DNA of 64,000 nt from Mycolicibacterium sarraceniae (lineage in GTDB: Bacteria > Actinomycetota > Actinomycetes > Mycobacteriales > Mycobacteriaceae): positions 3,596,001-3,660,000 of the forward strand of contig NZ_AP022595.1 of the NCBI RefSeq assembly GCF_010731875.1, written 5' to 3'. Shown piece after piece: positions 10,992 to 35,130 of the stretch. Position 1 is the stretch's first letter, and each line of letters opens with the position of its first letter. A program made the translations under genes and the position numbers. The notes under the pieces are model-generated. The model ran no database searches, had not been told where the DNA came from, and saw nothing but the letters and a program-made list of their open reading frames with translations.

Positions 10992-11032
10992 TACCTGACG
11001 GATCGACGCGACGGTCGCTAAGGAGGTGAAGC

Positions 11033-13355: not shown

Positions 13356-13894
13356 GCACCGCAGATCTGACGCTGGTCGAGGAACGCGCGACGACGACAC
13401 CCATACCGGAGGACCTGGTCGTCAAGGTTCTGGAGCCCTACTCCTACAAGGGGTGTCGCTACCTCCTCGACGCCGAGTACAAGGCCACCGAGGATTCGGT
13501 TCTGGCGTTCGGGAACTTCTGCATTCCGGAATCGGCATACATCCGCAGCACCGGTCATTTCAACGCGGTGGAGCTCTTGCTGTGCTTCAACCAGCTCGCG
13601 TACACCGCGTTCGCACCGGCGATCCTCAAGGAGGAAATCCCGGTGCTGGTGGGCTGGTCGATCGAGGACTACTTCGACTACCAACTGCCCAGCATGCTGA
13701 TCAAGACCACCTCGTCGCGATTCAGGAGGCCGATCAATGCGCACAACTTCTCCGCGCGACTGCTGTGCAAGGACTTCGAAATCATCGAACGAAGCTGGCG
13801 CTACCTGAAGGTCCCGTGCACCATAGAGTTCTGGGATTCCGACGGCGGTGCTGCCTCTGGTGATGTCGAGCTGGCGGCTCTCAACATCCCGTAA
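13352..13894 (+). CDS. fcoT: FcoT-like thioesterase-fold enzyme (Rv0098-like)
   Basis: This 180-residue hot-dog-fold protein matches Rv0098 (FcoT). The family region STGHFNAVELLLCFNQLAY (residues ~62-80) includes the conserved Asn and Tyr residues. In the isonitrile pathway homologues (ScoD, MmaD) act on the alpha,beta-unsaturated acyl carrier protein, catalysing glycine addition at the beta carbon, rather than as simple thioesterases. The ATG start overlaps the dioxygenase stop by four bases, so the two should be made together. A second, diverged copy lies at 22765-23307. Confidence 0.9.
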   Translation: MSTADLTLVEERATTTPIPEDLVVKVLEPYSYKGCRYLLDAEYKATEDSVLAFGNFCIPESAYIRSTGHFNAVELLLCFNQLAYTAFAPAILKEEIPVLVGWSIEDYFDYQLPSMLIKTTSSRFRRPINAHNFSARLLCKDFEIIERSWRYLKVPCTIEFWDSDGGAASGDVELAALNIP

Positions 13895-13920
13895 TTCGTT
13901 GTTGGGAAGGCAGTTACACC

Positions 13921-15507
13921 ATGTCTGATTTATCGCCGACCGTCGTGGAGCGGGTACTCCAACAGGCCGGGCAACGACCTGACGGCATCGCCCTTCGGCG
14001 CTGCGATGGTATGAGTGCGTTGACCTACCGTGAGCTCGTCAGCCAGATGAACACCCTCGCCGCCGAGTTGTCCGCGAGGTCGGTGGTCCCGGGATCGAGA
14101 GTGCTGATCGTCTCCGACAGCGGTCCGGAGACCTACCTGTCGGTACTGGCCTGCGCGAGACTCGGCGCGATCGCCGTCATGGCGGACGCTCGACTCCCGG
14201 TGGCCGCCATGGAGCGATTCGCGCACATCACCGAACCTGCAGCGATTCTGCTGACACCGGGAAGCGCGTTGTCTGCCGAAGAGCTGGCGGGTGGGTTCGG
14301 TGAACTGCCGGCGATCGGTGTGCGGGTCCGCACGCCCGGTCAGTCAACGCCGTCGCAGGATCTGCCCGGGCTGCCTGCCCTGGGCGCCGAAGACCCGCTG
14401 GCGATGATATTCACCAGCGGCACGACCGGCGAGCCCAAGGCGGTTCTGCTTGCGAACCGTACGTTCTATGCGGTGCAGGACATCCTGCGGGAGGAGAAAC
14501 TCGACTGGGTGGATTGGGTCGACGGAGAGACGACCTACTCGCCCCTGCCCGCCACCCATATCGGCGGACTGTGGTGGATCATCACGTGTTTGATGCGAGG
14601 CGGGCAGTGCATCACCGGTGGCGAGGGCGTGGCGTCGCTGCTGACGATCCTCGCCGACAACGATGTCGCAACGACCTGCGTCGTGCCGACGCTACTGGCA
14701 CGACTGGTCGCCGAACTGAAGACCACAGGTGCGGCCCTTCCGTCGCTGCGACTTCTGGGATATGGCGGCTCGCGTGCGATCGCCGCCGATGTACGTTCGC
14801 TGGAAGCGACGGGGGTCAAGACCGCGCAGGTCTATGGTCTCAGCGAAACCGGTTGCACCGCCTTGTGTCTACCGACGGCCGACGGGTCGATCGCCAAGAT
14901 CGAAGCCGGTGCGGTCGGGCGGCCCTACCCGGGGGTCGAGGTCTACCTTGATGCTGCGGGTACCGGCCCGCCGGCTGATCCTCGTGCCGGTGGCTCGGCG
15001 ACCTCGGGAACGCTGTGGATCAAGTCTCGGGCGAACATGCTCGGGTATTGGAACAACCCCGACCGCACCAGTGAGACCCTAGTGGACGGTTGGATCAACA
15101 CCGGCGACATCCTGGAGCGCCGAGAGGACGGCTTCTTCTACATCAGGGGCCGTTCGTCGGAGATGATCATCTCGGGTGGGGTGAACGTCGCACCCGACGA
15201 TGTCGACCGCATCGCCGAGAACGTCCCCGGTGTTCGTGAGGCCGCCTGCTACGAAATTCCCGATCCCGAATTCGGGTCGCTCGTCGGCCTGGCCGTGGTG
15301 CCAGCGGCGACGCTGGACGAACTCGGAACCCGCGCCCTCAAGCAGACGATCGCGGCGACCTTTCGGCGCGAGGCCGAATCCATGGCGCGACCCACATCGA
15401 TCGTGATCGTCACCGATATTCCCCGAACGCAGTCCGGCAAGGTGATGCGCTCGTCGCTGTCGACATCGATAAGCGAGGACAGGACCGGAACGGTCGTTCG
15501 TGGCTGA
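13921..15507 (+). CDS. fadD10: Fatty acyl-AMP ligase FadD10-like, loads the carrier protein
   Basis: This 528-residue adenylate-forming enzyme has the P-loop MIFTSGTTGEPKAVL, the YGLSETG motif and the hinge and lysine of the C-terminal lid (TQSGKVMR). It corresponds to M. tuberculosis FadD10 (Rv0099), which activates fatty acids and passes them to the stand-alone carrier protein Rv0100 instead of coenzyme A. GGGAAGG serves as ribosome-binding site 26 bases after the thioesterase stop. The 3' end overlaps the carrier protein gene by eight bases. It supplies the acyl chain that becomes the isonitrile lipid. Confidence 0.92.
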   Translation: MSDLSPTVVERVLQQAGQRPDGIALRRCDGMSALTYRELVSQMNTLAAELSARSVVPGSRVLIVSDSGPETYLSVLACARLGAIAVMADARLPVAAMERFAHITEPAAILLTPGSALSAEELAGGFGELPAIGVRVRTPGQSTPSQDLPGLPALGAEDPLAMIFTSGTTGEPKAVLLANRTFYAVQDILREEKLDWVDWVDGETTYSPLPATHIGGLWWIITCLMRGGQCITGGEGVASLLTILADNDVATTCVVPTLLARLVAELKTTGAALPSLRLLGYGGSRAIAADVRSLEATGVKTAQVYGLSETGCTALCLPTADGSIAKIEAGAVGRPYPGVEVYLDAAGTGPPADPRAGGSATSGTLWIKSRANMLGYWNNPDRTSETLVDGWINTGDILERREDGFFYIRGRSSEMIISGGVNVAPDDVDRIAENVPGVREAACYEIPDPEFGSLVGLAVVPAATLDELGTRALKQTIAATFRREAESMARPTSIVIVTDIPRTQSGKVMRSSLSTSISEDRTGTVVRG

Positions 15508-15745
15508 GGCCTTGCGGGACCGGATCGTTGCCGCCGTTCGAGACGTGCTGTACGTCGACGACTCGGATTTCACCGATGGCGACGACACCGACTTGAGGGA
15601 ACTCGGTCTGGACTCGGTCCGATTCGTCCTGCTCATGAAACAGCTTGGTGTGGAACGGGAATCAGACGTCCCACCCCGGTTGGCCAACGAGTTGACGATC
15701 GCGGCCTGGGCCCGCGTGCTGGGGAATCCCGATGACCTCGCTTGA
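15500..15745 (+). CDS. Acyl carrier protein (Rv0100-like)
   Basis: An 81-residue carrier protein with the phosphopantetheine attachment motif LGLDSVRF (serine near residue 39). It starts at a GTG inside the end of the ligase gene and overlaps the NRPS gene by 14 bases. It should carry the fatty acyl and then the isonitrile acyl chain through the dioxygenase and FcoT steps to the NRPS. It is the only free-standing carrier protein in the window, although there are two sets of acyl-modifying enzymes, so both sets may use it. Confidence 0.92.
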   Translation: MAEALRDRIVAAVRDVLYVDDSDFTDGDDTDLRELGLDSVRFVLLMKQLGVERESDVPPRLANELTIAAWARVLGNPDDLA

Positions 15746-18700
15746 CGAGGCGTCGGTCGACGCGATCCCCCTGACCAGTTCTCAACGGAACATCTACAAC
15801 GGGGTGCTGCAGGATGACGATCCCGCGCTGTATCTAGTCGGCCGTAGTTACCAGTTTCACCCGCTGGCGCCGCGGCAATTCCTGGCCGCGCTGCACGCAA
15901 CGATCATGAAACACCCCATCCAACTCTGCGTTCTAAGCCCGTCTGGTATCGCGGGCGACTACCCGGTTCTCGTCCCACGGCTTTCGGTCGACGACATCGT
16001 GACAGTCCGCAACGGCAGCCCGGCCGCAGGCAGCGGCGCGAACGATCTGCAACGGCTATGGGTGTACGGCATCGCGGACACGCCCCTGGTTCGATACATC
16101 GTCCGTACCGACTCGGGCGGGCAGGTCTGCGGTCTCGACGCGTTCACCCATCACATCCTGCTCGACGGCGGCGCAACGGGCCTCATCGAGTCCGACCTCG
16201 GGGACTACCTCTCAGCTCGCTTTCCTCCCGAAATCCCCTGTATCAGAGACGGTCTCACTAAAATTGCGGCAGCACACCAGCGTGAGGCGAGCAACGTGGC
16301 CGAAGCTCACGAACGGCTCACCGAGGCCGTTCGACGAGAGCTGGCCGAGGATGCGCGGAGCGGCGGATACGGCCAGAATTCCAGCGACATGCCGGGGACT
16401 GCAAGCCGCGGCGTTCGCGGTGAAACGGTGCGGATCTCCGGGCGTGCGTATGACGAGCTCGTCGCGTTGGGGGAGGCCGAGCATATTCCGCTGAATGTCT
16501 TGGTGACCGCCGCGGCCGCCGCCGTCGATGCGAGTATCCGGCAGAGCACCGTCAGCCTGTTGATCCACGCCGCGGACAACCGGTTCGGAGAGCCAGGCCT
16601 GGACGTCGCCACCTGTCTGGTCAACTCGGTGGCCCAACCGTCGCGATTCGCCCCGTTCGCCTCGGTCGAGGAGGTGGTGCGCACCTTGGACCGCGGCTAT
16701 GTCCGTGCGGTACGCCGCAAATGGCTTCGAGAAGAGCACTACCGCCGGTTGTACATCGCGACCAACCGCACGACCCACGTCGAGGCGTTGACCCTCAACT
16801 TCCTGTCCGAATCCTGCGCGCCCGCGCTCCGTCCCCACCTGACCGACACACCGGTGACGACGGCGATCGGCCCGGTGGAGAGCATGGCGGTGGCCTGCGT
16901 TGTCGACGATGAGCGGGGTTGTCTCGAGATCGCCATCTGGAATCGGGCCGATCTGCCGGAGCAAGGTGCCGGCGTCGCGGCACGGATTGCCTCGACACTC
17001 GAAGCGATACCGGCCATGTGGCATCAGCCCATGGCTCTGGCGGTCGACGACTGGCTCGAAATCGGCCCCGACGGTGCACTGCGCCAAGCCGATTCGACGA
17101 TCCGCCCAGCGCAACCGGCACCGCCGGCCTGGTTTCTGGACGCCGGCGGCGAGGTCGCGCCGCGCGTGCGGCGACACGAGCACATCGACCGGTGGGTGGC
17201 TTGGCTGGTGACGAACGGCATCGCCGCAGGCGACATCGCGGTGTTCACCGATGACGATACGGACAAGACCGTCGACCTGATGATCGCCTGTCACCTGGCC
17301 GGGTGCGCGTACAGTGCGTGCGATACCGGCGAGGAGCTGCACGTGAGGGCGGAATCCCTTGCACAGCAGGGCAATAGCGCCTCGGTGCACGTGATCGACG
17401 TGGCCGCAGCGCATCTTCCCACAGATTGGATCGCCGGCATTGCCTCACTCGTCGATCGACGGGTGCGGGAGGTGGCTACCGACCCTGGTTTGGCCGATAT
17501 GCCGGCCTACATCATGCCGACCTCCGGTTCGACGGGGCAGCCGAAGCTCGTCGAAGTGTCACACGGCTCGCTCGCGGTGTTCTGTGCGGCGGTGCGCACT
17601 GCGTATGGCTGGCGAGCAGACGACACGATCCTCCAATGCGCCCCGCTGACATCGGACATCAGTGTCGAAGAGATTTTCGGCGCGGCCCACTGCGGGGTGC
17701 GTCTGGTCCGCAGCACCGCGGTGAAAGCCGGTGATCTCCAGGCTCTCGCTGACGACCTTGTGGCCCGGCAGGCGACCGTCGTCGACCTACCCACCGCGAT
17801 CTGGCACCTGCTGTGCGACGACGCGGAAGCCCTGACGTCGCTGCGCGGCTCCCGGCTGCGCCAGGTCATCGTCGGGGGCGAAGCGATCCGGTCGACCGCA
17901 GTCGACAGATGGGTCGATGCCATTGGTTCACAGCAGATCTCGCTCATCTCCACCTACGGGCCGACGGAGACCACCGTCGTGGCAACCTATCTGCCGATAG
18001 TCTCAGCAGGGGTGGTCGTCGGCGAGGACACGCGGTCACGCCTGGGGCGCCCGATGGTCCCGGACACGGTGTTCACCGCCTTCGGCGAAGTCGTCATCGT
18101 CGGCGACCTGGTCGCATCCGGCTACCTGGAGACCGATAACCCGAGCTTCGGCTGGGTGGCCGACGGCCGCGGCCCCCGTCGCCGGGCCTTTGCCACAGCT
18201 GATCGCACTGTCGCGGACCCCGGGGGGTTTCCGGTTCTCGCCGGCCGCCGCGACGCGATCGTCAAGATCGGCGGCAGGCGAGTGGATACCGCCGAGATCG
18301 CCAAACTGGTCAGTGCAGAATCCGGGGTCACCGACGTGGCTGTCGAACAGTGTGATGGCTGTCTCGCGATCTGGTTCCAAACCCGCTCCGGCAACGACGA
18401 AGCCGTGGTAGTGGCACGGATCAGGTCGATGTTGAGCACCTTGCGAGTGCCTTCGTTCGTCGTGATGGCCGTGCCGATCATTCCACGCAAGGCCGGTGGC
18501 AAGGTCGACAGCGCGAAGCTTCCCGCGCCAACGGAGGTCACTGAGGCCCCGCCCGGTGATCACAGCACCGACCCCCGTGCGGTTGCGCTGGCCCAGATGT
18601 GGAGCCGTCAGTTGGGCAGGACGATCCGACCGGACTCATCGCTTCTCGATGAAGGGATCGGCTCGCTGGATCTCATCAGGATCCTGCCAGACACCCGGCG

Positions 18701-19940
18701 GCATTTGGCTCGGCATCTGTCGATCCTCGATCTGATCAGCACTGACAGTGCGCAGAACCTTGTCGACGATGCGGGCCCCGGGTTCGGCTGGCTCGATAGC
18801 GCAACCGCGGCTGCGATCGAGAACGACCTCGCGGACCTGCCGCAGAGCCGGACGCGCGATGCTCGGCACCCGGTCGAGCGCGGATCTCGGCCGATCGTCG
18901 TGCTCGGCGGATCCGGGATTCTCGGAACCGGCTTCGCCGAGGCGATTCTGTCGGCCAAGCAGGCCGGGCGATTACCTGCGGACGTCGTCATCGTCACGAG
19001 ATCGTCACTGCCCGAAGGCGATCCGTGGTCCTCCTTACGCAACATGGCCGGGGTCCGGATCGAGGTCGTCCCGACAGGTTTCGGCCGCGCCGAGCTTGAG
19101 CGCGTACTGGACGAGACGGATCCCGGATCGGTGCTGAACTGCATCGGCAATACCAACGTCCTCGTGCCGTATCGCGACCTTCGCACCGCGAACGTGGAAC
19201 TGGTCGCCGCGGCAGTGCGGGCATGTGCCCGGCGGGGCAGCAGATTCGTACACCTGTCGACGTTCGTGGTCACCGGGGACGTCACTGCGCCACACGTCAT
19301 CGACCCCAGGGAAGCGCCGTATCCCTATGCGGCTTCCAAGGCGGTCGCCGAGCTGATCGTGGCACGGTCACCGGCTGAACTGGATTTCACTATCGTCCGA
19401 CTGCCCAGGGTGCTCGGCCAACCCGAGCAGCTGGCCGGCTCAGCAGACATCCTGACTGCCGTCGCCGACGCGTGCGGAGCGTTATGTGCCTATCCGGCAA
19501 TCACACTGACCGAGGACGTGACCACCGCGCATGCGGCCGGCGCCGCGATCCTTGGCCTGTTGCCCGGAGCGGGGGGACCAGCGGAGCTGGGCTGCGGGAT
19601 CACTGTCCTGCGCGGGCAAGCCGTGCCATATGCGGAGTTCCTGAGCGACTATGGCCGGGATGAACTCAGTGCGAGGTCCTGGAAGGAGCTTCTGGACCAA
19701 AGTGATTGGGCGAAGCGCAACCCGAAGCGGTGGTCGGTCATCGACGCGTGGATCACGCTGGGCTTGCGAATCGGCGAGCGCACCTACGCCGAATTTCTGG
19801 CCGACTACCCGACTATCAGCCTCGATCTGACATCGATCACCGAAGTCCAGACGACACCCCAGCCGCTGCGCGAGCTATTGACCGCCGAGTTCGCCTATCG
19901 GATGGCGACCCACACCCTGACCAGTGAGGAATGGCAATGA
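15732..19940 (+). CDS. nrp: Single-module NRPS with terminal reductase (C-A-T-R), isonitrile lipopeptide synthetase
   Basis: A 1402-residue synthetase. Condensation domain: residues ~10-440, HHxxxDG intact at H140-H141-D145-G146. Adenylation domain: ~480-935, P-loop TSGSTGQPK near 595. Carrier domain: serine S978 (GIGSLDL). Reductase: ~1050-1390, NADPH loop GGSGILGTG and YxxxK at Y1199/K1203. Read against the standard code positions the A domain gives D642, I643, E646, A689, I713, G715, T741, V749, V750, K924, close to lysine codes of the DAExIGTVVK type. It would join isonitrile acyl chains to lysine and release the product by reduction. M. tuberculosis Nrp (Rv0101) is about 2500 residues with two modules; this one has one, like Streptomyces ScoA. 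Confidence 0.93.
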   Translation: MTSLDEASVDAIPLTSSQRNIYNGVLQDDDPALYLVGRSYQFHPLAPRQFLAALHATIMKHPIQLCVLSPSGIAGDYPVLVPRLSVDDIVTVRNGSPAAGSGANDLQRLWVYGIADTPLVRYIVRTDSGGQVCGLDAFTHHILLDGGATGLIESDLGDYLSARFPPEIPCIRDGLTKIAAAHQREASNVAEAHERLTEAVRRELAEDARSGGYGQNSSDMPGTASRGVRGETVRISGRAYDELVALGEAEHIPLNVLVTAAAAAVDASIRQSTVSLLIHAADNRFGEPGLDVATCLVNSVAQPSRFAPFASVEEVVRTLDRGYVRAVRRKWLREEHYRRLYIATNRTTHVEALTLNFLSESCAPALRPHLTDTPVTTAIGPVESMAVACVVDDERGCLEIAIWNRADLPEQGAGVAARIASTLEAIPAMWHQPMALAVDDWLEIGPDGALRQADSTIRPAQPAPPAWFLDAGGEVAPRVRRHEHIDRWVAWLVTNGIAAGDIAVFTDDDTDKTVDLMIACHLAGCAYSACDTGEELHVRAESLAQQGNSASVHVIDVAAAHLPTDWIAGIASLVDRRVREVATDPGLADMPAYIMPTSGSTGQPKLVEVSHGSLAVFCAAVRTAYGWRADDTILQCAPLTSDISVEEIFGAAHCGVRLVRSTAVKAGDLQALADDLVARQATVVDLPTAIWHLLCDDAEALTSLRGSRLRQVIVGGEAIRSTAVDRWVDAIGSQQISLISTYGPTETTVVATYLPIVSAGVVVGEDTRSRLGRPMVPDTVFTAFGEVVIVGDLVASGYLETDNPSFGWVADGRGPRRRAFATADRTVADPGGFPVLAGRRDAIVKIGGRRVDTAEIAKLVSAESGVTDVAVEQCDGCLAIWFQTRSGNDEAVVVARIRSMLSTLRVPSFVVMAVPIIPRKAGGKVDSAKLPAPTEVTEAPPGDHSTDPRAVALAQMWSRQLGRTIRPDSSLLDEGIGSLDLIRILPDTRRHLARHLSILDLISTDSAQNLVDDAGPGFGWLDSATAAAIENDLADLPQSRTRDARHPVERGSRPIVVLGGSGILGTGFAEAILSAKQAGRLPADVVIVTRSSLPEGDPWSSLRNMAGVRIEVVPTGFGRAELERVLDETDPGSVLNCIGNTNVLVPYRDLRTANVELVAAAVRACARRGSRFVHLSTFVVTGDVTAPHVIDPREAPYPYAASKAVAELIVARSPAELDFTIVRLPRVLGQPEQLAGSADILTAVADACGALCAYPAITLTEDVTTAHAAGAAILGLLPGAGGPAELGCGITVLRGQAVPYAEFLSDYGRDELSARSWKELLDQSDWAKRNPKRWSVIDAWITLGLRIGERTYAEFLADYPTISLDLTSITEVQTTPQPLRELLTAEFAYRMATHTLTSEEWQ

Positions 19941-20299
19941 CAGACGTATCCGAATATCAGGACCGACGCATCCAGCTTGATGTGACCGGCATGACGTGCG
20001 GAATGTGCTCGGCCCGCGTTGCCAAGCAGCTCAACAAGATCGAAGGAGTCCGGGCGTCCGTCGACCTCGCCACCAAGATCGCGACCGCGGATGTCCGAGG
20101 TGACGTCGACGTCGCCGATCTCTGTGCCGTCGTCGAGAAGGCCGGCTATGGAGCGACGGAACGTTCCATCACCATCCTCGACGACGTTTCCGTGGTTGAG
20201 AGCGCCACACGCAGTCCCGTGCGGCACCTGATCGAATTCGCGTTGCTATTCCTCGGGTGGCTCGGCATTCGCGGTCGACGGCCGAAACCGGGCATATGA
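19937..20299 (+). CDS. Stand-alone heavy-metal-associated (HMA) domain protein
   Basis: A 120-residue protein with an HMA domain at residues ~8-75; the metal-binding loop is GMTCGMCSARV (CxxC). A hydrophobic stretch (HLIEFALLFLGWLGI) near the C terminus may be a single membrane anchor. It looks like the N-terminal domain of CtpA/CtpB copper P-type ATPases without the pump; in M. tuberculosis ctpB lies near the nrp operon. The start overlaps the nrp stop and the stop overlaps the next start, both ATGA, so it belongs to the nrp operon. A copper or other soft-metal chaperone or receptor for the lipopeptide complex is plausible; the function is not established. Confidence 0.85.
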   Translation: MTDVSEYQDRRIQLDVTGMTCGMCSARVAKQLNKIEGVRASVDLATKIATADVRGDVDVADLCAVVEKAGYGATERSITILDDVSVVESATRSPVRHLIEFALLFLGWLGIRGRRPKPGI

Positions 20300-21255
20300 C
20301 CCGCTCGGTGGTGATCGTCGGCTTTCCCGGAGTCCAGGGGTTGGACATCGTCGGGCCGCATGATGTGTTCACCGGCGCGGCGCTGCTGACCGAGGGTGGT
20401 TACCGGGTCAGCGTGGTATCGCAGGACGGCCAGCCGATTTCGACGTCCACCAGCCTGGCCGTCGTCGCGCACGCGATGCCTGATCCAGGCGATATCGACA
20501 CCCTGGTGTTACCAGGCGGCCCCGGGATCGATGCGGCCAGGCAAGATCGGGACCTGGTGGCCTGGATCAAAACGGCGGCCAGCAACTCCCGCCGGGTGGT
20601 CAGCGTGTGTACCGGCGCGTTTCTGGCCGCCACGGCAGGACTGCTCGATGGCTGCCGGGTGACAACCCACTGGGCGTTCGCTGATCAGCTGGCCCGCGAA
20701 TTTCCGGGCATCACTGTCGATCCCGAGCCGATATTCGTGCGCAGCTCGGCGTGTGTGTGGACGGCGGCAGGTGTGAGCGCAGGCATCGATCTCTCGCTTG
20801 CGCTCGTCGAGGAGGACTACGGCGGCGAAGTGGCCCAGGCTGTTGCGCGCTGGTTGGTGGTGTATCTGCGTCGGCCCGGTGGCCAGCTGCAATTTGCCGC
20901 GCCCCTGTGGATACCGCGCGCGGGCCGCCAGTCCATCCGGGATGTGCAGGAAGCGATCGAAGCCGAACCCGGTGCCGCCCACAGCATCTCCGGGCTGGCA
21001 CAGCAGGCCGCGATGAGTCCGCGTCACTTTACCCGGGTGTTCACCGAGCAGATCGGCGAATCGCCGGGTGCCTACGTCGAACGTGTCCGCACCGAAGCCG
21101 CCCGCTGTCAGCTCGAGGAGACCGACGATACCGTCGTCACCATTGCCGAGCGGTGTGGATTTGGTACATCAGAGACCATGCGGCGGACCTTCATTCGCCG
21201 GATCGGTATCCCGCCCGACCAATACCGCAGAAGCTTCTCGTGGACGATCAGTTGA
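20296..21255 (+). CDS. GlxA-type AraC-family regulator with DJ-1/PfpI sensor domain
   Basis: A 319-residue protein with an N-terminal DJ-1/PfpI domain (residues ~1-185; nucleophile-elbow motif SVCTGAF, D17 in GLDIVGP) and a C-terminal AraC helix-turn-helix pair (~225-315; AERCGFGTSETMRRTF). Domains of this type sense small molecules or amides. The start overlaps the HMA gene stop (ATGA), making it the last gene of the PPE1-nrp operon, so it probably controls this pathway in response to product or intermediate. The DJ-1 domain is of the same superfamily as isonitrile hydratase, so an isonitrile ligand is possible. Its 3' end overlaps the opposing FadD gene by eight bases. Confidence 0.88.
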   Translation: MTRSVVIVGFPGVQGLDIVGPHDVFTGAALLTEGGYRVSVVSQDGQPISTSTSLAVVAHAMPDPGDIDTLVLPGGPGIDAARQDRDLVAWIKTAASNSRRVVSVCTGAFLAATAGLLDGCRVTTHWAFADQLAREFPGITVDPEPIFVRSSACVWTAAGVSAGIDLSLALVEEDYGGEVAQAVARWLVVYLRRPGGQLQFAAPLWIPRAGRQSIRDVQEAIEAEPGAAHSISGLAQQAAMSPRHFTRVFTEQIGESPGAYVERVRTEAARCQLEETDDTVVTIAERCGFGTSETMRRTFIRRIGIPPDQYRRSFSWTIS

Positions 21256-22765
21256 TCTGCCGTTCGCGGCCGGCCCAAAACTGTTCACGGAGGGTTCGGC
21301 GCAGGATCTTTCCGCTCGGGTTCCTCGGGATCGTGTCGACGATGTGGAACGTTCCCGGTAGCTTGAATCGGGCGACGCGCCGCATCAGGAACTGCTCGAG
21401 GTCGTCGATTCGAAGATCCGCACCGGGTTTGGCGACGATGAACGCGTGAATGCATTCACCCCTGCGGACATCAGGGGCGCCGACCACCGCGCTGTCGTGC
21501 ACTGACGGGTGAGCGTTGATCGCTTTCTCGACCTCGGCGGGATAGACGTTCTCACCGGACACGATGATGAGATCCTTGACGCGGTCGCGGATCACCACAA
21601 ACCCGTCGTCGTCCAGATATCCCGCGTCACCCGTGCGGATCCAGCCGTCGACAATGGTCTCCGCGGTCGCCGCCGGGTTGCCGAAGTACTCGAGCATTTG
21701 CGCCGGGCTCCGCAGGTAGACCTCGCCGCAGCATCCGGGCGGAAGATCGGTCCCGGCGGGATCGCGGATGGCGACAGCAACTCCCGGGTACGGGCGACCC
21801 GCGGCGTATAGGCGCTCCCGTCCCGGCAGGTGCTCGCTCGGCGGCAGACATACCGCGGTATTTCCCGTCTCGGTCAGACCGTAGATCTGCGCGAAGTCAC
21901 ACGCGAACACATCGATCGCCTGGGCAAGCAGCTCTGGGCCGATAGGAGAGCCACCGTAGACGATCTTGCGGATGGTGACGAAGTTCGACGCGGCCACGCC
22001 GGGCTCGGACACCATCATCAACAGCATCGCGGGAACGAAACAGCTGACGGTGACACCATTCTCACGGATCGTCGTCACCGCATCCGATGCACCGAATCGC
22101 GGGATCACCACGCTCGGTATCCCGCGGTTCAGGGCCTGCGTCGCCCACCACATACCACCGATGTGAAACCCTGGAAGCGCGATCAGGCTGACGTCGTCGT
22201 CGCGCCAATCGACCCAATCCAGGCCGGCATCGTCCAGGAGTTCCCGTATCGCGGTGAAGGTACGGTGTGCCAGCACAACCCCTTTGGGGCGGCCGGTGGT
22301 ACCGCTGGTGTACATCTGCACGACAGGCGTGTCGCGGTCGGCGGCGAATTCTGGGATGTCGAGTGCGAATGCCCCGTCGCGCCAGGCGGTGAAATCCTCG
22401 GCGGCTATCACAACGTCGGCCGTCAGATCGGTTCGGTCGGTGACGAGTATCCGGGCGCCGGCGTGATCGATGATGTAGTCGACTTCGTCGGTAGCCAGGC
22501 GCCAGTTCACCGGAACCAGGACTGCGCCGAGACGTGCACAGCCGTACAGCAACTCGTACAGGACCGGTGAATCGGTGGCGACGTAGACCACTCGGTCTCC
22601 GGCCGTGATGCCGGCCCCGGCAAGCGCCCGGGACACCGAAACCGACCGCGCAGCAAGCTCGGTGAACGACACCCGCATCGCACCGAAGATCAGGGCTGTG
22701 CGGTCCCCGCTGAGACGGACGTTGCGCTCGAGGGTCGAGACAAGGTCGAAATGACTACCACCCAT
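21248..22765 (-). CDS. Second fatty acyl-AMP/CoA ligase of the isonitrile set
   Basis: A 505-residue adenylate-forming enzyme with MYTSGTTGRPKGVVL, QIYGLTETGNT and the C-terminal lysine motif NPSGKILR. It is a clear relative of the FadD10-like protein at 13921 but well diverged. It is the last gene of a minus-strand trio dioxygenase-FcoT-FadD, in the same order as the first set; its ATG overlaps the FcoT stop (TAATG). No carrier protein follows, so it may load the carrier encoded at 15500 or use coenzyme A. A second acyl chain length or head group for the lipopeptide is a reasonable guess. Confidence 0.88.
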   Translation of the reverse strand: MGGSHFDLVSTLERNVRLSGDRTALIFGAMRVSFTELAARSVSVSRALAGAGITAGDRVVYVATDSPVLYELLYGCARLGAVLVPVNWRLATDEVDYIIDHAGARILVTDRTDLTADVVIAAEDFTAWRDGAFALDIPEFAADRDTPVVQMYTSGTTGRPKGVVLAHRTFTAIRELLDDAGLDWVDWRDDDVSLIALPGFHIGGMWWATQALNRGIPSVVIPRFGASDAVTTIRENGVTVSCFVPAMLLMMVSEPGVAASNFVTIRKIVYGGSPIGPELLAQAIDVFACDFAQIYGLTETGNTAVCLPPSEHLPGRERLYAAGRPYPGVAVAIRDPAGTDLPPGCCGEVYLRSPAQMLEYFGNPAATAETIVDGWIRTGDAGYLDDDGFVVIRDRVKDLIIVSGENVYPAEVEKAINAHPSVHDSAVVGAPDVRRGECIHAFIVAKPGADLRIDDLEQFLMRRVARFKLPGTFHIVDTIPRNPSGKILRRTLREQFWAGRERQIN

Positions 22766-23307
22766 TATGAATTCGTAGGCAGATCCACCAACACGATTTC
22801 GAACTCTCCCAGCGCGCTGCCGATACCGTCGTCGGTGAACTCGATGGTGGTCTGCAGAGCCAACAACGGTCGGGTCCGCCTGCGGAACTCGATGTCGGTG
22901 ATCGACAGTCTTCCGTGATACGCCCGCGCATTGATCGGCTGCCGGAACCGGGTCGCCATCTTGCTGATCAGCACCGAGGGCAGTTGGCGCTGCCAATAGT
23001 CGTCCATCGTCCAGCCGGTCAGCTCGGGGATCAATTGGTCACGAACCGATGCCGCGAGCGTGTAATAGAAGAGCTGGTTGTAGGAGATGATGAACTCGAC
23101 CGCGTTGAAATGGCCGGTTTCTTCGATATAGCACGATTGCTCGAACCCCAGTTCCCCGTCGCCGACGATCGCCGCGCCGCGCCGCGCGACTATCGCGCTC
23201 TTGAGGTAGATGGTGTCCTTGCCGACATACGGCGTCATCGTGCGATTCAGCAGAACCGCGTCGTCGTGCAAATATTCGGCCAGGCCCGGTTGCGATGTCT
23301 GCGTCAT
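22765..23307 (-). CDS. Second FcoT-like thioesterase-fold enzyme
   Basis: A 180-residue protein of the FcoT family, sharing EETGHFNAVEFIISYNQLFYY with the counterpart region of the first copy (STGHFNAVELLLCFNQLAY) and the later block PSVLISKMATRFRQPINA. The same catalytic role, glycine addition to an unsaturated acyl carrier protein, is inferred. ATG at 23307 overlaps the dioxygenase stop; the stop overlaps the ligase start. The divergence from copy one is large, so this is an old duplication or a separately acquired set, not a recent tandem copy. Confidence 0.87.
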   Translation of the reverse strand: MTQTSQPGLAEYLHDDAVLLNRTMTPYVGKDTIYLKSAIVARRGAAIVGDGELGFEQSCYIEETGHFNAVEFIISYNQLFYYTLAASVRDQLIPELTGWTMDDYWQRQLPSVLISKMATRFRQPINARAYHGRLSITDIEFRRRTRPLLALQTTIEFTDDGIGSALGEFEIVLVDLPTNS

Positions 23308-24191
23308 GCGGCGACCTCGGCGCTCAGGGGGTGTTCGTCGGTGACAGTCACGCGGAAGGACTCCGTGGGTTCGTTGGTCGGATTGTGCAGGGCTCGGTGG
23401 ATCAAGGTCCGGTTGTCCCACAGCACCAGATCGCCGGGTTCATAGGTCTGCACGAAGATGTTCGGGTGCTCGTATGAGTCGTCCAATTGTCCTGAAGCGT
23501 CGAGCAGATCGTCGAGCAGGGATGTCGGCAACGCGTTGCCGTGCGCATCTTCGATGGCGTAGGTGAATGCCTCGGAGATGTAGAGAATCCGCTCGCCGGT
23601 CGCCGGATGGACAAGCACCGTCGGCCAGGTCTGCGGCGGTGTCACCCGTTCGATGTCGGCCAGAACCTCGCCGATCGGGCGATAGACGTCCGACGGCCGG
23701 ATCTTCACATAGCGGCGGGCGCTGTGCTTGCTGACGGTACCGCCGACGGCCTCCTTGAGTCGCGGAGACAGGCGCTCGTAGGCGGTGGCCATATTGATGA
23801 ACCGGGTACCGCGGGTACCGTGGGGCAGCTTCTGCGGATAGAAGAGGGTGAACGCGAACGGTTCCGGCATGAACTGGTAGTCGGCATGCCAGAAGCCGCC
23901 GGTCTTCGGCACACCGATCTGTCCCTCGGGGCGAGTGAGGTTCGAGGAGACGAAGATCAGATCGTTCTCCGGGTGGTGGTACATCGGCTCGTAGTAGGAC
24001 ACTGGCGTCCCGAAGTGGCGTCCGAGTTCCACGAATGCGGCGGGCTTGAGCTCTTGAGCTTTGAGGATGACGACCTTGTTCGTATAAATGTGGTGCCGAA
24101 GTAGTTGGATGTCATCGCTGGTCGCCACCGCCTGGTCGAAGTGGTGTACCTCGATACCGGCGTGGTCGTCGGATCTGGTCGTCAGTTGCAT
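23304..24191 (-). CDS. Second Fe(II)/2-oxoglutarate dioxygenase, isonitrile-forming type
   Basis: A 295-residue TauD-family enzyme with iron ligands H102 and D104 (GFWHADYQF) and distal H265 (LWDNRTLIHRALH). It is colinear with the first copy at 12486 (shared [18 protein letters not shown] block and [17 protein letters not shown]). ATG at 24191 is preceded by AGGAAG. First gene of the three-gene minus-strand operon, driven by a candidate promoter at 24327-24353. All residues expected for activity are present, so both sets appear functional. Confidence 0.9.
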   Translation of the reverse strand: MQLTTRSDDHAGIEVHHFDQAVATSDDIQLLRHHIYTNKVVILKAQELKPAAFVELGRHFGTPVSYYEPMYHHPENDLIFVSSNLTRPEGQIGVPKTGGFWHADYQFMPEPFAFTLFYPQKLPHGTRGTRFINMATAYERLSPRLKEAVGGTVSKHSARRYVKIRPSDVYRPIGEVLADIERVTPPQTWPTVLVHPATGERILYISEAFTYAIEDAHGNALPTSLLDDLLDASGQLDDSYEHPNIFVQTYEPGDLVLWDNRTLIHRALHNPTNEPTESFRVTVTDEHPLSAEVAA

Positions 24192-24326
24192 CAAGGGTCT
24201 TCCTGTCGCGGAGGGCGTCGGCCGGTGCGATCATGTCCGTTCTGCCAGTGGGCCAACGGATTAGGACGGCGGCGTCGAAGGCTGCGTAGACGCCTGCCAC
24301 CCTCTCGTTGGTCGGTCGAGGTATTT

Positions 24327-24353
24327 GTCGGCAGATATTGACGCTTAGTTCCC
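24327..24353 (-). promoter_or_regulatory. Candidate ECF sigma promoter of the second dioxygenase operon
   Basis: On the minus strand: GGGAAC, 16 bases (ending ATCTG), then CCGAC. The match to the PPE1 operon site includes the flanking TA after GGGAAC and the spacing. It lies 136 bases upstream of the start at 24191. The strand, the spacing and the position in the divergent gap with the acyltransferase gene all fit a promoter, but no expression data exist. Confidence 0.45.
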
Positions 24354-24474
24354 GACGATCGACGATGTCTTCTTCGCATAGGAACCGTGAACGGCGGGAT
24401 GTACATTGAGCGCCGCGCACCCTGGATACCGATAGCCTCTCGTGGCGCTGGATCGGCTCGGAAGAAGGGCCCAC

Positions 24475-25821
24475 ATGAACACCCCGATCGACAACACTCT
24501 GGCCTATATGGATCAGGGTTCGTTTCTCGGCCTACGCGCGCTTGGCCGAGGACCGGTCATCCAGTACATCTGGATCTACGAGAACGGCGTCGATCTCGAC
24601 GGTCTGCGACGGTTCCAGCGCAACCTAAAGCACACGCTGGTGGCGCGTCTGATCGAACGATCGCCACTGCCGTTCGGCAGGCATCGTTGGGTGTCGTACG
24701 ACGGACCCGCCGATCTCGATGTCGCCGTCTCGTTGCGGAGCCGCGACGAGGTCTGGGACTGGGTCGATGAGAGGTCCTTCGTCGCGATCGATCCGGAATT
24801 CGGGCCGCCCTGGCATCTCGGGGTGCAGCCGCTCATCGGTGGTGGTGCCGCTGTGTCGCTGGCGATTTCGCACACCACAGGCGACGCGGTGGCCGGGATG
24901 CTGGCCATCGCCGACGCCGTCAACGGCACCCGCCGGAACTTCGGATTTCCGCCGCCAGGGGCGCGCAGCCGTAGACAAGCGCTTCGGCAGGACATCGTCG
25001 TCACCGCCCGCTCGGCGCTGCAGGTCCCCGCCGCGATCACCGGCGGTATGCGGGTCGCTCGTGAACAGCAGGATGACCTGTCGACCTCGGCCAGGTCGGC
25101 GTCTCCCGCGTCATCGGCGTCTACGGGCGCCGAGCGGCTGGTGGTACCCAGGATCTACGGCTACGTCGAGGCGAAGGAGTGGGACGAGCGGGCCAGAGCC
25201 CTCGGCGGGACACGCAATGTGCTGTTCGCCGGATTCTCCGCTCGCGTCGGCTATCGCCTCGGTCGCGCGGACGGCGCAGGACGCATCGTGTTATCGGTCC
25301 CGGTGAGTGAGCGTACCGAGGGCGATACACGAGCGAATCCACTCAATTCCATTACGGTGCTTGCTAACCCGAATGAGGTCACAGACGATCTCGCCGGGCT
25401 TCGGGCGGCCCTGAAACAGGCGCTCGTCGAGCTCGCGGAATCGGGGAATTCGCTGCTAGCACCGTTGGCATTGATTCCGTTCACTCCGAAGGTGGCTGTC
25501 CGCCGCTTGGAGAACCTCGTGTTGAAGGTGGGTAAACCCGTGGGCTGCACCAATATTGGTGAGATGCCACCCGAGGTGAATCGGCCCGATGGTACTGATG
25601 CGGACTTTTTCGGCACCCGTGGCGGTGAAGCTGGTGTCACGGCACCGATTTTGGAGCGTCTGGGCGGGCACTTGCTGGTGTCGGCGGCATCGCTGCGTGA
25701 CAAGGTGTGGTTCAGCGTTGCGTCGTGGGAGTCCGGCAGGATCAATACGAAAGCGGCAGTCTCCGATGTGGTGCGTGCCGCCCTCGACGATTTCGGTCTG
25801 CCGGCGACGATCGAATCCTAA
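24475..25821 (+). CDS. WS/DGAT-like acyltransferase (condensation-fold)
   Basis: A 448-residue protein of the wax ester synthase/diacylglycerol acyltransferase type. The catalytic motif, HHxxxDG in the family, reads SHTTGDA (about residue 130), so the first His is lost but HxxxD, which holds the catalytic His, is kept. Later blocks (NPLNSITVLANPNE, CTNIGEMP) match the C-terminal half of the fold. ATG at 24475 has a GAAGAAGG ribosome-binding site. It is divergent from the second dioxygenase operon and may acylate or deacylate the lipopeptide, or make a storage lipid; position favours the first. Confidence 0.8.
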   Translation: MNTPIDNTLAYMDQGSFLGLRALGRGPVIQYIWIYENGVDLDGLRRFQRNLKHTLVARLIERSPLPFGRHRWVSYDGPADLDVAVSLRSRDEVWDWVDERSFVAIDPEFGPPWHLGVQPLIGGGAAVSLAISHTTGDAVAGMLAIADAVNGTRRNFGFPPPGARSRRQALRQDIVVTARSALQVPAAITGGMRVAREQQDDLSTSARSASPASSASTGAERLVVPRIYGYVEAKEWDERARALGGTRNVLFAGFSARVGYRLGRADGAGRIVLSVPVSERTEGDTRANPLNSITVLANPNEVTDDLAGLRAALKQALVELAESGNSLLAPLALIPFTPKVAVRRLENLVLKVGKPVGCTNIGEMPPEVNRPDGTDADFFGTRGGEAGVTAPILERLGGHLLVSAASLRDKVWFSVASWESGRINTKAAVSDVVRAALDDFGLPATIES

Positions 25822-26408
25822 ACCGGTGGTGCAGGGTCGTATTGGATGTAGCGGCGGATCTCACGGGCGCGGTCGACGCCGGCAAGCCGGCTGATGAGAT
25901 GCAGCGCCATGTCGATTCCTGCCGAGACTCCCGACGCGGTGATGATGTCGCCGTCGTCGACGAACCGTTCCTCACGCCGGACATCGATCGTCGGATCGAG
26001 CGTGGTCAGCCAGTCCAGCGAGGCCCAGTGAGTGGTGGCCGGTCGATGTGACAGCAGCCCGGCTGCGGCATACACCAGAGAACCGGTGCACACGCTGGTC
26101 ATCAGGGGCACGACATCGCGTTGGCGCCGGACCCAATTTAGCCAGTCGTCGTCCTGCACCAGGGGGCGCACCCCATGGCCCCCGGGGTGCACAAGAACGT
26201 CGAGCGGCGGCGCGTCATCAAAGGAGCGGTGAGCCTGCACGACCAGGCCCTTGGCGCATAGCACCGGACCACCCGATCGAGACACGCAAGAGACGGCATA
26301 TCCATCGTCGGGAAAGTGGTGGGTCCAGGTCGACAAGACCTCCCACGGGCCGATCGCGTCCAGTTCTTCGACTCCGTCAAACAGCACGATCCCGATGTTC
26401 TTGGTCAT
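25818..26408 (-). CDS. DJ-1/PfpI family protein, candidate isonitrile hydratase
   Basis: A 196-residue single-domain DJ-1/PfpI protein. It has D17 (ELDAIGP), C107 and T108 (SVCTGSL) and ends in IQYDPAPP, all matching the layout of Pseudomonas putida isonitrile hydratase InhA (EC 4.2.1.103), in which I recall Asp17, Cys101 and Thr102 as essential. InhA hydrates isonitriles to N-substituted formamides. Lying between two isonitrile-forming gene sets, the gene could detoxify free isonitrile, recycle spent metallophore or release bound metal. It follows sigC by 21 bases on the same strand and is probably co-transcribed. The protein is shorter than InhA (~228) at the C terminus. Confidence 0.8.
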   Translation of the reverse strand: MTKNIGIVLFDGVEELDAIGPWEVLSTWTHHFPDDGYAVSCVSRSGGPVLCAKGLVVQAHRSFDDAPPLDVLVHPGGHGVRPLVQDDDWLNWVRRQRDVVPLMTSVCTGSLVYAAAGLLSHRPATTHWASLDWLTTLDPTIDVRREERFVDDGDIITASGVSAGIDMALHLISRLAGVDRAREIRRYIQYDPAPPV

Positions 26409-26429
26409 GGACGCCGAGTCCTTGAATGC

Positions 26430-26981
26430 TCAGCCCGCACGATCGTTGCGGATTGCGGCCTTGAGTAGATCCTCGCGGCCCCGCGCGACACGGGAGCGGA
26501 TGGTGCCCACCGGACAACCGCAGACCGCGGCGGCCTCGGTGTAGGACAGCCCGAGCACCTGCGTCAACATCAGGGCATCACGCCGATCGGGATCCAGGCC
26601 GTCGAGCAGCATCTTGATCTCGACGATGTCTTCGAAACTGGCTGCTCTGCGTCGGGTGTCGAGCACGGGCTCCAGATCCACGGTCGAGGTGGTGCGCGGT
26701 CGGCTCTGGTTACGGCGGATCTGATCTACGACAACGCGACGAGCGATGGACAGCAACCACGTCCGCGCTGAGGACCGGGCGGTGAACCGCGGCAGCGATC
26801 CGAGCGCGCGCAGGAAGGTCTCCTGGGTGAGATCGTCCGCAGAACCGGGGTCACCCAAGAACGCGACGGTCCGCCAGACGTCCAGCTGGGTTGCCTTGAT
26901 GAACTGTTCGAGTGCGGCAGCGTCGCCCCGACCGGCCGCGAGCGCCAGCCTGGTTATCTGGTCGTCGTCGCGTGCGCTCAC
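26430..26981 (-). CDS. sigC: ECF sigma factor SigC
   Basis: A 183-residue ECF sigma factor clearly like M. tuberculosis SigC (Rv2069): region 2 [18 protein letters not shown] and region 4 [22 protein letters not shown] at 26981 gives the N terminus (M)[13 protein letters not shown] and the family length; the frame extends further upstream but without family similarity. SigC of M. tuberculosis has been linked to control of the nrp chalkophore operon and copper acquisition. Here it lies in the same island as nrp, which makes local control likely. No adjacent anti-sigma gene is on the same strand, but a zinc-finger membrane protein is encoded at 29742. Confidence 0.92.
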
Positions 26982-27076
26982 GAAGAGCCACCTTAGGGGA
27001 TTGGCTGGAGAAACTCTCCACCGGCGAAAGATCCAGTCGCTCCTGGGTCGGGCGATCCACCGCAAGCGCCGCGCTG

Positions 27077-27103
27077 GGGAACCAGAGCGTGCCGCCGCAC
27101 GAC
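27077..27103 (+). promoter_or_regulatory. Candidate ECF sigma promoter of blaI
   Basis: GGGAAC, 16 bases, ACGAC, ending 44 bases before the blaI start. Third of four sites in the island with GGAAC-N17-CGAC. The site lies in the divergent gap between sigC and blaI. Confidence 0.4.
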
Positions 27104-27147
27104 TGAATAGCTAGGCGCGCGTGTGAAGGTGATGGAGGCGATCGGCT

Positions 27148-27609
27148 TTGGCAAAATTGAAACGTCTCGGCGACCTCGAACGCGCCGTGATGGACCATCT
27201 GTGGGACGTCGGTGGGCCACAGACCGTGCGCCAGGTCCGCGATGCCCTCTGCACCCAGCGCGAACTGGCCTACACCACCGTGATGACGGTTCTCCACAGG
27301 CTTTCCTATAAGGATCTGGTCGTCCAAATACGTGAGGATCGCGCGTATCAGTACATTCCGACCCACAACCGTGACGAACTGGTGGCCGGTCTCATGGTCG
27401 ACGTCTTGGATCAGGTCACCGACTGCGGTGACCGGCAAGCCGCGCTCATGCATTTCGTCGGGCAGGTCGGAGTCGATGAGGTAGATGCGCTGCGCCGCGC
27501 ACTCGCCGAGGCCGGCAATAACCCATCGAGCCATGCCGGCGATCACCGCCGCGGGCAGGGTCGAGAACGCGGTCCCGTTGCGCCGCAACAACTTCTGAGC
27601 GGATGGTGA
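27148..27609 (+). CDS. blaI: BlaI/CopY-type winged-helix repressor
   Basis: A 153-residue protein very like M. tuberculosis BlaI (Rv1846c) over residues 1-130: (M)AKLKRLGDLERAVMDHLW and AYTTVMTVLHRLSYKDLV form the DNA-binding domain, and VDEVDALRRALAEA the dimerisation helix. The start is TTG at 27148 with GGAGG ten bases upstream; no ATG or GTG fits better. The last ~25 residues are rich in Arg and Gly and resemble nothing in the family, perhaps a frame-altered tail. In M. tuberculosis BlaI is followed by the BlaR-like peptidase Rv1845c; none is seen here, so its signal is unclear. Divergent from sigC and convergent with ctaG. Confidence 0.88.
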   Translation: MAKLKRLGDLERAVMDHLWDVGGPQTVRQVRDALCTQRELAYTTVMTVLHRLSYKDLVVQIREDRAYQYIPTHNRDELVAGLMVDVLDQVTDCGDRQAALMHFVGQVGVDEVDALRRALAEAGNNPSSHAGDHRRGQGRERGPVAPQQLLSGW

Positions 27610-27632: not shown

Positions 27633-29615
27633 TCAGCGGCGGGACCGCGATATCTCTCTGAGCATCGCGTTGTACGCGTCGAGGTCGTCATCGCCGTAGG
27701 CGGCATCCGTGTGGCGATCGCTGCGAGTCGCGGCGCGGCGATCTTGCCGAGCCCACTGCGCCACCAACGCGACGACAACAACGATGATGGGCAATTCGCT
27801 TGACCCCCAGGCGATTGCACCACCCAAGTGTTGGTCATCGGTGAGGGTAGAGACCCATGGCAGGTCGACATTATGGTAGAAGGTGCCGCCGATGGCTGTG
27901 TCCATCGTCATCGTCGCGATGCCGAAGAAGGCGTGGAACGGCATCACTGCAAAAAGTAGGCCCAGACGACCCACGAAGGGCAACCGGCGCGGGCCGGGGT
28001 CGACGCCGATGATGCCCCAATAGAACAGGTATCCAGTGATCAGGAAGTGGATACTCATGAGCTCGTGGCCCCAGTGATACCGCACCAGAGTGTCGAACAG
28101 CGGGGTGAAATAGACGGCATACAAAGAGCCGACGAACAGCACGAAGGCGGTCATCGGATTCGCGATGAAGCTCGTCACAGGCGAATGCACTAGCTGCAGC
28201 AGCCATTCCCGCGGCCCGGGGGGCTGATCGGCGCCCGCCGCCGGTAGCGCGCGCAGTGCGAGCGTCAGCGGTGCGCCGAGGACGAGGAACACCGGGATGA
28301 ACATGTTCAGCGCCATGTGTTCGGCCATGTGCACACTGAACATCGCTGAACCGTAGGCTCTGACACCCGAACCGGTGACGAACAACAGCGTCAGACAGCC
28401 GGCCAGCCAGGCGCAGGTACGGCCCGGCGGCCAGCGGTCGCCGCGGCGTCGCATCCGCATGACGCCGGCAACATAAAGTGCGGTCAGCACCAATGCTCCC
28501 GCGCCGATAAACGTATCGAACCGCCAGAAGGTCAATAACCGCAACACAGTTGGCGGACCGGGAAGCTCATAGCCCAGGAAGACATCCCAGGCGGTGAACT
28601 GATGTGCCAGAAGCCCGGGTGCGGTCTGGATCGCCATCGCGGAGATCGCTGCGACTGCGGCGATCATCGCCACCGCGCCTGCCATCGCGATTCTTTTGCC
28701 CCGCTGAATAGCGCGGTTTCGTGATCGGAGGAGGGTCGTCAAATCGACCAGCCAAACCGATATCAGCGCAGCCGAGGCGACAATGCCGAGCCGCCCGTAG
28801 TCGGAGGCGGTGAGCGCAGTCGGCGACAGCATCAGCCACAGGAGAAGAGCGCCGTACAGCAGCGACACGGAACCGCTCGTCACCTCGATCACAACGATTC
28901 GCCGCAGCAGTTGCGCGTTTGGGGGCGCGAGCACCGCGCACACCTTCGCTCCCGTGAGAACGGTGAGGGCGAGCATAAAGACGATCATGGAACTGGTGGC
29001 GAAGTCGTGATGTGGACCCTGCCCGGCGTTGCCGGTGACGGGCACGGCGACCACAGCGATGAGCGATGGAATCAGCAGTACAACGTGCCATATCCAGCGC
29101 ACGGTGAGCCGAAGCGCTACCGCGACGACAGCGGAAAAGATGGTTGTGGCAATCCATCCCCGGGACATTTCGGAGGCGCCGATGGCGTCGCCGATCGCCC
29201 CGGAGGCGACCAGCCTCGCGACAGCCAAGCCCGAGTCGTCTGCCGCCTGGACTAACACCATCGCTGCGGCCGAGGCCAACCAGACCTGTGACACGCGCTC
29301 TGCCAGGAGATGCAGCCGGAACGAGCGGGCGTCGAGGACACCGAGTTCATCAGGGCACGCCATCGCCACGATGTAGACCAGCACGCCGAGAACTACCGCA
29401 CCGGACAACGTGGCAGTGAAATAGCCGACCCCCTCTGCGATGCTGGTCAGCAGTCCCGGGAACGCGTCGCCGGTCGCGCGGAAACGCCGGTCGCCTGAGA
29501 TCATCGCGTAGCCTGCGATCGCGGCCGCCATGGCCAGGTAGCCGGTGAGAAGCACCCATCGTCTCGCCAACCGCGCGCCTTGGCGCGATCGCATTTTCGT
29601 CGTCGTCTTCCGCAC
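27633..29615 (-). CDS. CopD-CtaG fusion membrane protein (Rv0102-like)
   Basis: A 660-residue integral membrane protein with about fourteen hydrophobic segments. The N-terminal half has the CopD copper-resistance fold; the C-terminal half (residues ~370-630) is a CtaG/caa3-type cytochrome oxidase assembly domain with HMAEHMALN and a His/Asp-rich loop near the end. The same size and order as Rv0102, which lies directly after nrp in M. tuberculosis, so the linkage with the lipopeptide genes is conserved. A role in copper delivery across the membrane to the oxidase is likely. GTG at 29615 or ATG at 29594 could be the start; neither has a strong ribosome-binding site. Confidence 0.87.
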
Positions 29616-33357: not shown

Positions 33358-33360
33358 CGG

Positions 33361-35125: not shown

Positions 35126-35130
35126 AAGGC

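Follow-up and report, generated by a model that had tools for sequence, protein, structure and literature searches.

The isonitrile hydratase (ICH, also InhA) of Pseudomonas fluorescens is an enzyme of the DJ-1 fold (PDB 3NON, 6NI4 and others) that converts isonitriles into N-formamides through a cysteine thioimidate, and pseudomonads likely use it as a defence against the isonitriles of competitors (PMC10971408). Enzymes of this kind have also been described beside isonitrile pathways. XanA, encoded in the xanthocillin cluster of Aspergillus fumigatus, is a close homologue of isonitrile hydratase (PMC5974471), an isocyanide hydratase is found in 21.1% of fungal isocyanide-synthase clusters (PMC10153163), and such hydratase genes lie within isonitrile clusters that respond to copper starvation (PMC5974471, PMC10153163). 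An actinobacterial diisonitrile producer, Streptomyces thioluteus, is credited with tandem diisonitrile hydration by an isonitrile hydratase in the title of Zhu et al. (2018, Org. Lett.; reference 47 of PMC10971408), and our comparison with it is based on that title. In mycobacteria, the diisonitrile chalkophore cluster ppe1-nrp has been described in a paper whose main text does not use the word hydratase (PMC9600254), and the enzyme appears only as an annotation, for MSMEG_3366 and Rv0052c. Here we describe a candidate isonitrile hydratase gene (25818..26408, minus strand) inside an isonitrile biosynthesis island of Mycolicibacterium sarraceniae, within a stretch of 64,000 nucleotides (contig NZ_AP022595.1, positions 3,596,001 to 3,660,000; hereafter the window, to which all coordinates refer unless another contig is named). 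In the reading that we favour with moderate confidence, its product would act on the island's own isonitriles, in copper release, turnover or self-protection. Neither this kind of enzyme nor its position next to isonitrile pathways is new; the mycobacterial setting and the proposed cassette are. A literature search, with subscription journals mostly outside its reach, found no report linking a hydratase to mycobacterial isonitrile lipopeptides, as the initial annotation of this locus had also held.

The open reading frame (ORF) at 25818..26408 begins with ATG a few bases after AAGGA, and its stop overlaps by 4 bp that of a convergent gene for a 459-amino-acid (aa) protein. As the initial annotation had proposed, the 196-aa product belongs to the DJ-1/PfpI family (Pfam DJ-1_PfpI, 86.2 bits). 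Its closest PDB protein by sequence is P. fluorescens isonitrile hydratase (139.9 bits versus 102.2 for the runner-up; 43-45% identity to the P. fluorescens structures), which is also the closest solved structure to its predicted fold, and P. fluorescens InhA and the candidate are reciprocal best matches in the genome (138 bits versus 92.5). The other DJ-1 models of NCBIfam fell below their cut-offs, namely glyoxalase III (TIGR01383, 57.3 against a cut-off of 131.25), PfpI (TIGR01382, 29.4 against 139.05) and deglycase PfpI (19.8 against 330), as did the models of AraC-type DJ-1 regulators (FtrA, 87.8 against 425; GbdR, 73.6 against 480), and a Pfam scan found no helix-turn-helix (HTH) or other DNA-binding domain. 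The initial annotation had named grouping with unrelated PfpI proteases or chaperones as evidence against a hydratase, and no such grouping was seen: the closest characterised relative is ICH, and the PfpI-type models lie far below cut-off. The family evidence for a candidate isonitrile hydratase is strong. In length the protein differs from the Pseudomonas enzymes, which have about 228 aa, whereas it stops just past YDPAPPV. It differs in setting too, as its gene belongs to the island of a putative isonitrile producer.

The candidate shares with the P. fluorescens enzyme the catalytic Asp and Cys, the next Thr and the C-terminal YxPxPP. We compared it with P. fluorescens InhA and not with the P. 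putida sequence named in the initial annotation; D17, Cys107 and Thr108 are kept, aligning to InhA D17, C101 and T102, and the YDPAPP tail is present, with YAPAPP as its InhA counterpart. Across 90 aligned proteins, comprising proteins of the window type and P. fluorescens InhA (type-B and AraC rows, described below, were left out), Asp and Cys occur in 90/90, and the third position is Thr in 87 and Ser in 3. These residues do not diagnose a hydratase, because AraC-type regulators with a DJ-1 domain in the same islands keep them wholly or partly: Asp and Cys are present in 11 of 11 intact island regulators, followed by Thr in 4 (the window's own included), Ser in 2 and Asn in 5. By contrast, the YxPxPP tail is found in 18 of the 20 window-type proteins of the genus (the exceptions are in G581 and G709) and in 8/8 type-B proteins, compared with none of 12 intact AraC-DJ-1 regulators. 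To judge from these alignments, the Asp/Cys/Thr residues appear to be necessary and not sufficient for hydratase identity, and the tail, a marker that we defined from P. fluorescens ICH and not a published one, appears to be the better guide. The candidate hydratase assignment made in the initial annotation is supported in part, by sequence, predicted fold and reciprocal match, and the residues quoted for it fail as diagnostic markers. Position 80 was also tried as a marker of the linked clade described below (Val in all 7 linked proteins, as in P. fluorescens InhA; Thr in 80/81 unlinked ones) and is not used as evidence.

The surrounding genes bring together a ScoE equivalog, FcoT, an acyl ligase, an acyl carrier protein (ACP) and a nonribosomal peptide synthetase (NRPS) with a reductase domain, as in diisonitrile lipopeptide clusters. 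With two ScoE proteins above cut-off, FadD10, two FcoT, an ACP and an NRPS, this is the isonitrile biosynthesis island that the initial annotation had claimed, and it uses ScoE, unlike the fungal clusters, in which an isocyanide synthase forms the isonitrile. Two isonitrile-forming sets are present. Set 1 (11033-19940, plus strand) follows the usual mycobacterial order, shared with ppe1-nrp: a PPE protein gene that opens the operon (11033..12508; Pfam PPE, 200 bits), the oxidase ScoE1 (12387..13355; NCBIfam ScoE 470.8 bits, cut-off 400, and placement in the ScoE tree; the model match begins near 12486), a FcoT1/ScoD-like gene (13241..13894; Pfam FcoT 194.8 bits, ScoD equivalog 123.7, below its cut-off of 250), the acyl ligase FadD10 (13921..15507; NF004515, 901.8 bits, cut-off 726), a stand-alone ACP (15500..15745; LGLDSV motif read from the sequence) and a 1402-aa NRPS (15732..19940) with Pfam adenylation, thiolation and reductase domains, the thioester reductase model scoring 128.9 bits, below its cut-off of 213.35. 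A condensation domain is likely in the NRPS from its N-terminal stretch and a HHILLD motif. After set 1 comes an AraC regulator with an N-terminal DJ-1 domain (20257..21255, plus strand; DJ-1_PfpI 86.4 bits, HTH_18 80 bits), and then set 2 on the opposite strand, the gene for the 459-aa protein and the hydratase gene.

Set 2 (minus strand) consists of the acyl-AMP/CoA ligase FadDb (21248..22996; AMP-binding, 246.4 bits), a FcoT2/ScoD-like gene (22765..23421; Pfam FcoT 165.7 bits) and the oxidase/decarboxylase ScoE2 (23304..24194; NF049937 465.2 bits, cut-off 400, and placement in the ScoE tree). The FadDb ORF, as listed, runs into FcoT2; its true start is therefore probably internal to the ORF, and the same is probable for FcoT2. 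The 459-aa protein (24442..25821, plus strand) is acyltransferase-like, with an HTTGD (HxxxD) motif; it matched no Pfam family, and several of its homologues are named diacylglycerol acyltransferase or wax synthase while many are unnamed. Beside set 2, the part of the window that was read contains no second NRPS, and no second ACP was noticed. ScoE1 and ScoE2 proteins form two groups with Shimodaira-Hasegawa-like approximate likelihood ratio test (SH-aLRT) support of 100, and the mycobacterial ScoE2 proteins group with three proteins from another genus of the same family (SH-aLRT 98), in a midpoint-rooted tree of 59 of 111 sequences that carries a long-branch warning. Relative to ppe1-nrp, the window has in addition the second isonitrile-forming set, the AraC-DJ-1 regulator, the hydratase, and the BlaI and CtaG genes.

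The linkage of hydratase to isonitrile genes recurs in the genus. Among 396 genomes (ScoE at E <=1e-60, hydratase type at E <=1e-45), ScoE is present in 88, the hydratase type in 20 and both in 10, so that the hydratase type occurs in 10/88 genomes with ScoE versus 10/308 without (Fisher p 0.005, relatedness ignored). In 7 of the 20 carriers the hydratase lies within 10 kb of ScoE, where a single gene would have a chance of about 0.7% of landing that close to either of two ScoE genes, again ignoring relatedness; DJ-1 genes are numerous in the genus sample (166 in 20 of its genomes, or 8.3 each). The distance to ScoE2 is 1.6-1.7 kb in the window genome (1.6 kb there), G550, G297, G239, G713 and G414, and in G527 the hydratase is 0.46 kb from the NRPS. 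In 6 of the 7 linked genomes the hydratase adjoins set 2, meaning the ligase, FcoT2, ScoE2 and the 459-aa acyltransferase-like protein. Two ScoE copies are found in 7 genomes, and in one further genome (G627, 64% complete) the sole copy is of the ScoE2 type; of these 8 set-2 genomes, 6 have the hydratase beside ScoE2, and G528 instead has a protein of a second type behind the NRPS. We did not count as linked G708 (18.5 kb from ScoE1), G688 (on another contig) or G581 (51% identity, unlinked), and set aside L057 (a partial TauD match) and L182 (in G610, with a DJ-1 frame of 506 aa past the NRPS). Fourteen ScoE stretches, L110 included, run into contig ends.

That second type, which we call type B, is a separate InhA-like subfamily of about 240 aa, with 41-46% identity to InhA and Cys-Ser in place of Cys-Thr in 8/8 members. 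Its gene lies directly behind an AraC-DJ-1 gene, itself behind the NRPS, in 8 of the 88 ScoE genomes (L090, L110, L121, L122, L129, L149, L153 and L184). Since G414 carries both types, 14 of the 88 ScoE genomes have a hydratase-like gene in the island. Other genomes have DJ-1 genes side by side at sites remote from ScoE as well. The AraC-DJ-1 gene is in the island of 12 of the 88 ScoE genomes, intact in the window, at L085 and L089 and at the eight loci just named, and split over two frames at L088 (G239).

The linkage is good evidence with a single origin. The 7 linked hydratases form one clade. A tree of 101 proteins, among them all 20 from the genus, supports it with SH-aLRT 98 (nine duplicate locus rows and the AraC rows were left out of this tree, and three more from the 90-protein alignment), and a tree limited to 13 of the 20 gives 99/96. 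A single clade most likely reflects one capture. The hydratase (13 of the 20 genus proteins) and the set-2 genes (10 loci, without G627) share the same branching order. The set-1 tree of 20 chosen genomes, on the other hand, joins the window genome, G550, G414 and G527 (100/100), and set 1 rejects the set-2 grouping in the approximately unbiased (AU) test (p-AU 8e-48). Most simply read, this means that set 2 and the hydratase passed from lineage to lineage as a unit. In G239 this unit is intact about 3.3 Mb from set 1 in contig coordinates (about 2 Mb round the circle), and linkage to isonitrile genes has survived rearrangement both there and in G527.

These observations describe a candidate for a dedicated hydratase, whose gene is tied to the pathway in a defined group of species; in most others, no such gene was found next to the pathway. 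If the P. fluorescens mechanism carries over (PMC10971408), Cys107 would attack the isonitrile carbon. Asp17 would protonate that carbon and then activate water, and the resulting thioimidate would be hydrolysed to the N-formamide. Isonitriles hold Cu(I) in a way that N-formamides do not. Hydration inside the cell would therefore strip the carrier of its copper or take it out of use, and the cell's own metalloenzymes would be protected from surplus isonitrile. Loss of the hydratase should raise the level of isonitrile and, if the enzyme releases copper, should also lower usable copper. Whether the chalkophore copper complex is part of oxidase assembly or refills copper pools is a choice that PMC12140626 leaves open. 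We tentatively put forward a more specific possibility, which we would not call likely: the hydratase may be the copper-release step of a chalkophore cycle, like the esterases that open ferric siderophores, with the AraC-DJ-1 protein as a covalent isonitrile sensor, and synthesis, sensing and unloading may make up one portable cassette, assembled at least twice from different InhA-like subfamilies. Isonitriles holding Cu(I) would then be hydrated in the cell and the copper freed for the CtaG/oxidase branch encoded next door, and the same chemistry would leave a thioimidate on the AraC-DJ-1 Cys as a signal. As an observation apart, the island AraC-DJ-1 regulators that keep the hydratase Asp and Cys are possible covalent isonitrile sensors.

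Directly 5' of the hydratase gene, on the same strand and 21 bp away, is a gene for a SigC-type extracytoplasmic function (ECF) sigma factor (26430..27065, minus strand; NCBIfam SigC equivalog 257.6 bits, cut-off 219), and the two probably form an operon with the hydratase second, in the window as in G550. The ppe1-nrp cluster is under SigC control (PMC7924339), and, leaving aside the window genome and G550, 24 genomes of the genus sample carry SigC-type genes in their ScoE stretches; such genes are also present at 7 of 16 loci outside the genus. The genome of the window (G000) has a second SigC-type gene at C1:3160444, 77% identical to the first. Divergent from the sigma-hydratase pair is a BlaI/CopY-family repressor gene (27148..27609, plus strand; Penicillinase_R 92.7 bits, CopY_TcrY 36.1, below its cut-off of 121.95), followed by a CtaG-type cytochrome oxidase assembly protein gene (27633..29615, minus strand; Caa3_CtaG 303.9 bits). 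A palindrome, TACGACCGTTGGTCGTA, at 29643, just before the CtaG gene, may be a site of the BlaI/CopY-like repressor.

The pattern GGAAC[CT]-N14-19-CGAC[TA] is present in 67 of 81 PPE upstream regions (58 with exactly N16), compared with 1.2% of random 253-bp stretches. Since near-identical SigC promoter elements have been described 5' of ppe1 and ctpB (PMC7924339), we infer that GGAAC[CT]-N16-CGAC[TA] is a SigC-type element. Within the window, GGAACT-N16-CGACT stands before the PPE gene (10966..10992, plus strand), before ScoE2 (24326..24352, minus strand) and before the BlaI/CopY-like gene (27078..27104, plus strand; 2/2 loci, the window and G550). Their placement and exact N16 spacing are what make these three elements notable, and not their number, which chance alone can give (1.15 sites expected, and as many as 6 across 100 simulations). 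At the mycobacterial set-2 loci the strict pattern precedes ScoE2 in 4/8 and a relaxed one in 8/8, the background rate applying to the strict form only. With a second isonitrile set of the type found in other genera of the family behind the same kind of promoter-like element, the islands are predicted to yield products in which two sorts of isonitrile acyl chain are combined. A SigC consensus, SSSAAT-N16-20-CGTSSS, gave 7 matches in the window versus 5.1 expected, no excess, and was replaced by the PPE-derived element. The element was found upstream of the sigma gene in 0/11 regions, and no sigma-70 promoters or terminators were found around 25700-27300.

Several observations weigh against a hydratase dedicated to the island's isonitriles. 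Neither hydratase type is in the stretch read in 74 of the 88 ScoE genomes, and no DJ-1 gene is present on the 18.4-kb contig of the set-2 genome G627 (the genome being 64% complete). The linked clade being one capture, the seven linked genomes are not independent, and the hydratase taken by itself gives only a weak rejection of a set-1-like grouping (p-AU 0.069). AraC-DJ-1 regulators share some or all of the catalytic residues. The SigC-like element is upstream of the hydratase type in 0/19 regions, linked or not, and thus gives no sign of joint regulation with synthesis. Outside the genus, one of 16 ScoE loci (in 15 genomes) has a DJ-1 gene nearby. This lone case, L193 in the non-mycobacterial genome G933, is an InhA-like gene of 52% identity near the cluster; about 0.5 such cases would be expected at 8.3 DJ-1 genes per genome, and we therefore do not count it as support. 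Its protein has Thr at position 80. The L193 contig also carries a ScoE of 533 bits, a FecCD transporter, a PCuAC domain and a SigC-like gene, and G933 has a second ScoE on a separate contig (L194). Finally, for the best 80 of at least 527 relatives, a true ScoE is in the flank of 3 and absent from that of 76, with L057 giving a weak partial TauD-type match; many of these flanks are short.

Part of this evidence suits a generic actinobacterial DJ-1 stress protein, or an aldehyde-acting enzyme, with an unrelated substrate, captured once and since then hitch-hiking. Relatives at 65-81% identity occur in a wide range of genera, almost all of them Actinomycetota, and in differing gene contexts, and the 22 largest neighbour clusters contain no recurrent partner beyond the gene itself, antisense frames, genes from close Streptomyces and common gene types (an ABC transporter, a short-chain dehydrogenase/reductase and an acyl ligase, as read from the sequences). 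That the linked group is a single clade fits as well. Against such a passenger stand the survival of the linkage through rearrangement, a branching order that matches set 2, and the second, distinct InhA-like subfamily that adjoins the same kind of cluster; the low scores of the glyoxalase III, PfpI and deglycase PfpI models also argue against it. We consider this explanation rather unlikely.

We think it improbable that the protein is a tailoring enzyme that deliberately converts one isonitrile of the product into an N-formyl group, giving a mixed isonitrile/formamide product. The gene does travel with the second isonitrile set, as tailoring would have it, but 81 of the 88 ScoE genomes lack a window-type gene within 10 kb of ScoE, and the promoter element that precedes set 2 is missing before the hydratase gene. 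A role not as an enzyme in practice but as a sensor, or as a partner of the AraC-DJ-1 regulator or the sigma factor, to which the regulator genes in 12 of the 88 ScoE genomes with their shared residues and the probable operon with the sigma gene might point, is very improbable for a protein that has no DNA-binding domain, keeps the YxPxPP tail absent from the regulators, and is encoded in G297 with no AraC-DJ-1 gene in the stretches read.

Isonitrile hydration in the service of the island remains the reading that we favour, and the pathway's flanks add two further observations. Preceding the set-1 operon, at 114-10189, are type VII secretion genes (an FtsK/SpoIIIE-type ATPase, EspG, EccD, a subtilase and EccE) and an MMPL transporter gene, and EccE and MMPL are also 5' of set 1 in G708 and G414. 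On the other flank, at 31487-39144, a FUR-family regulator, a ZnuABC-like importer and a CobW protein form a metal-handling neighbourhood.

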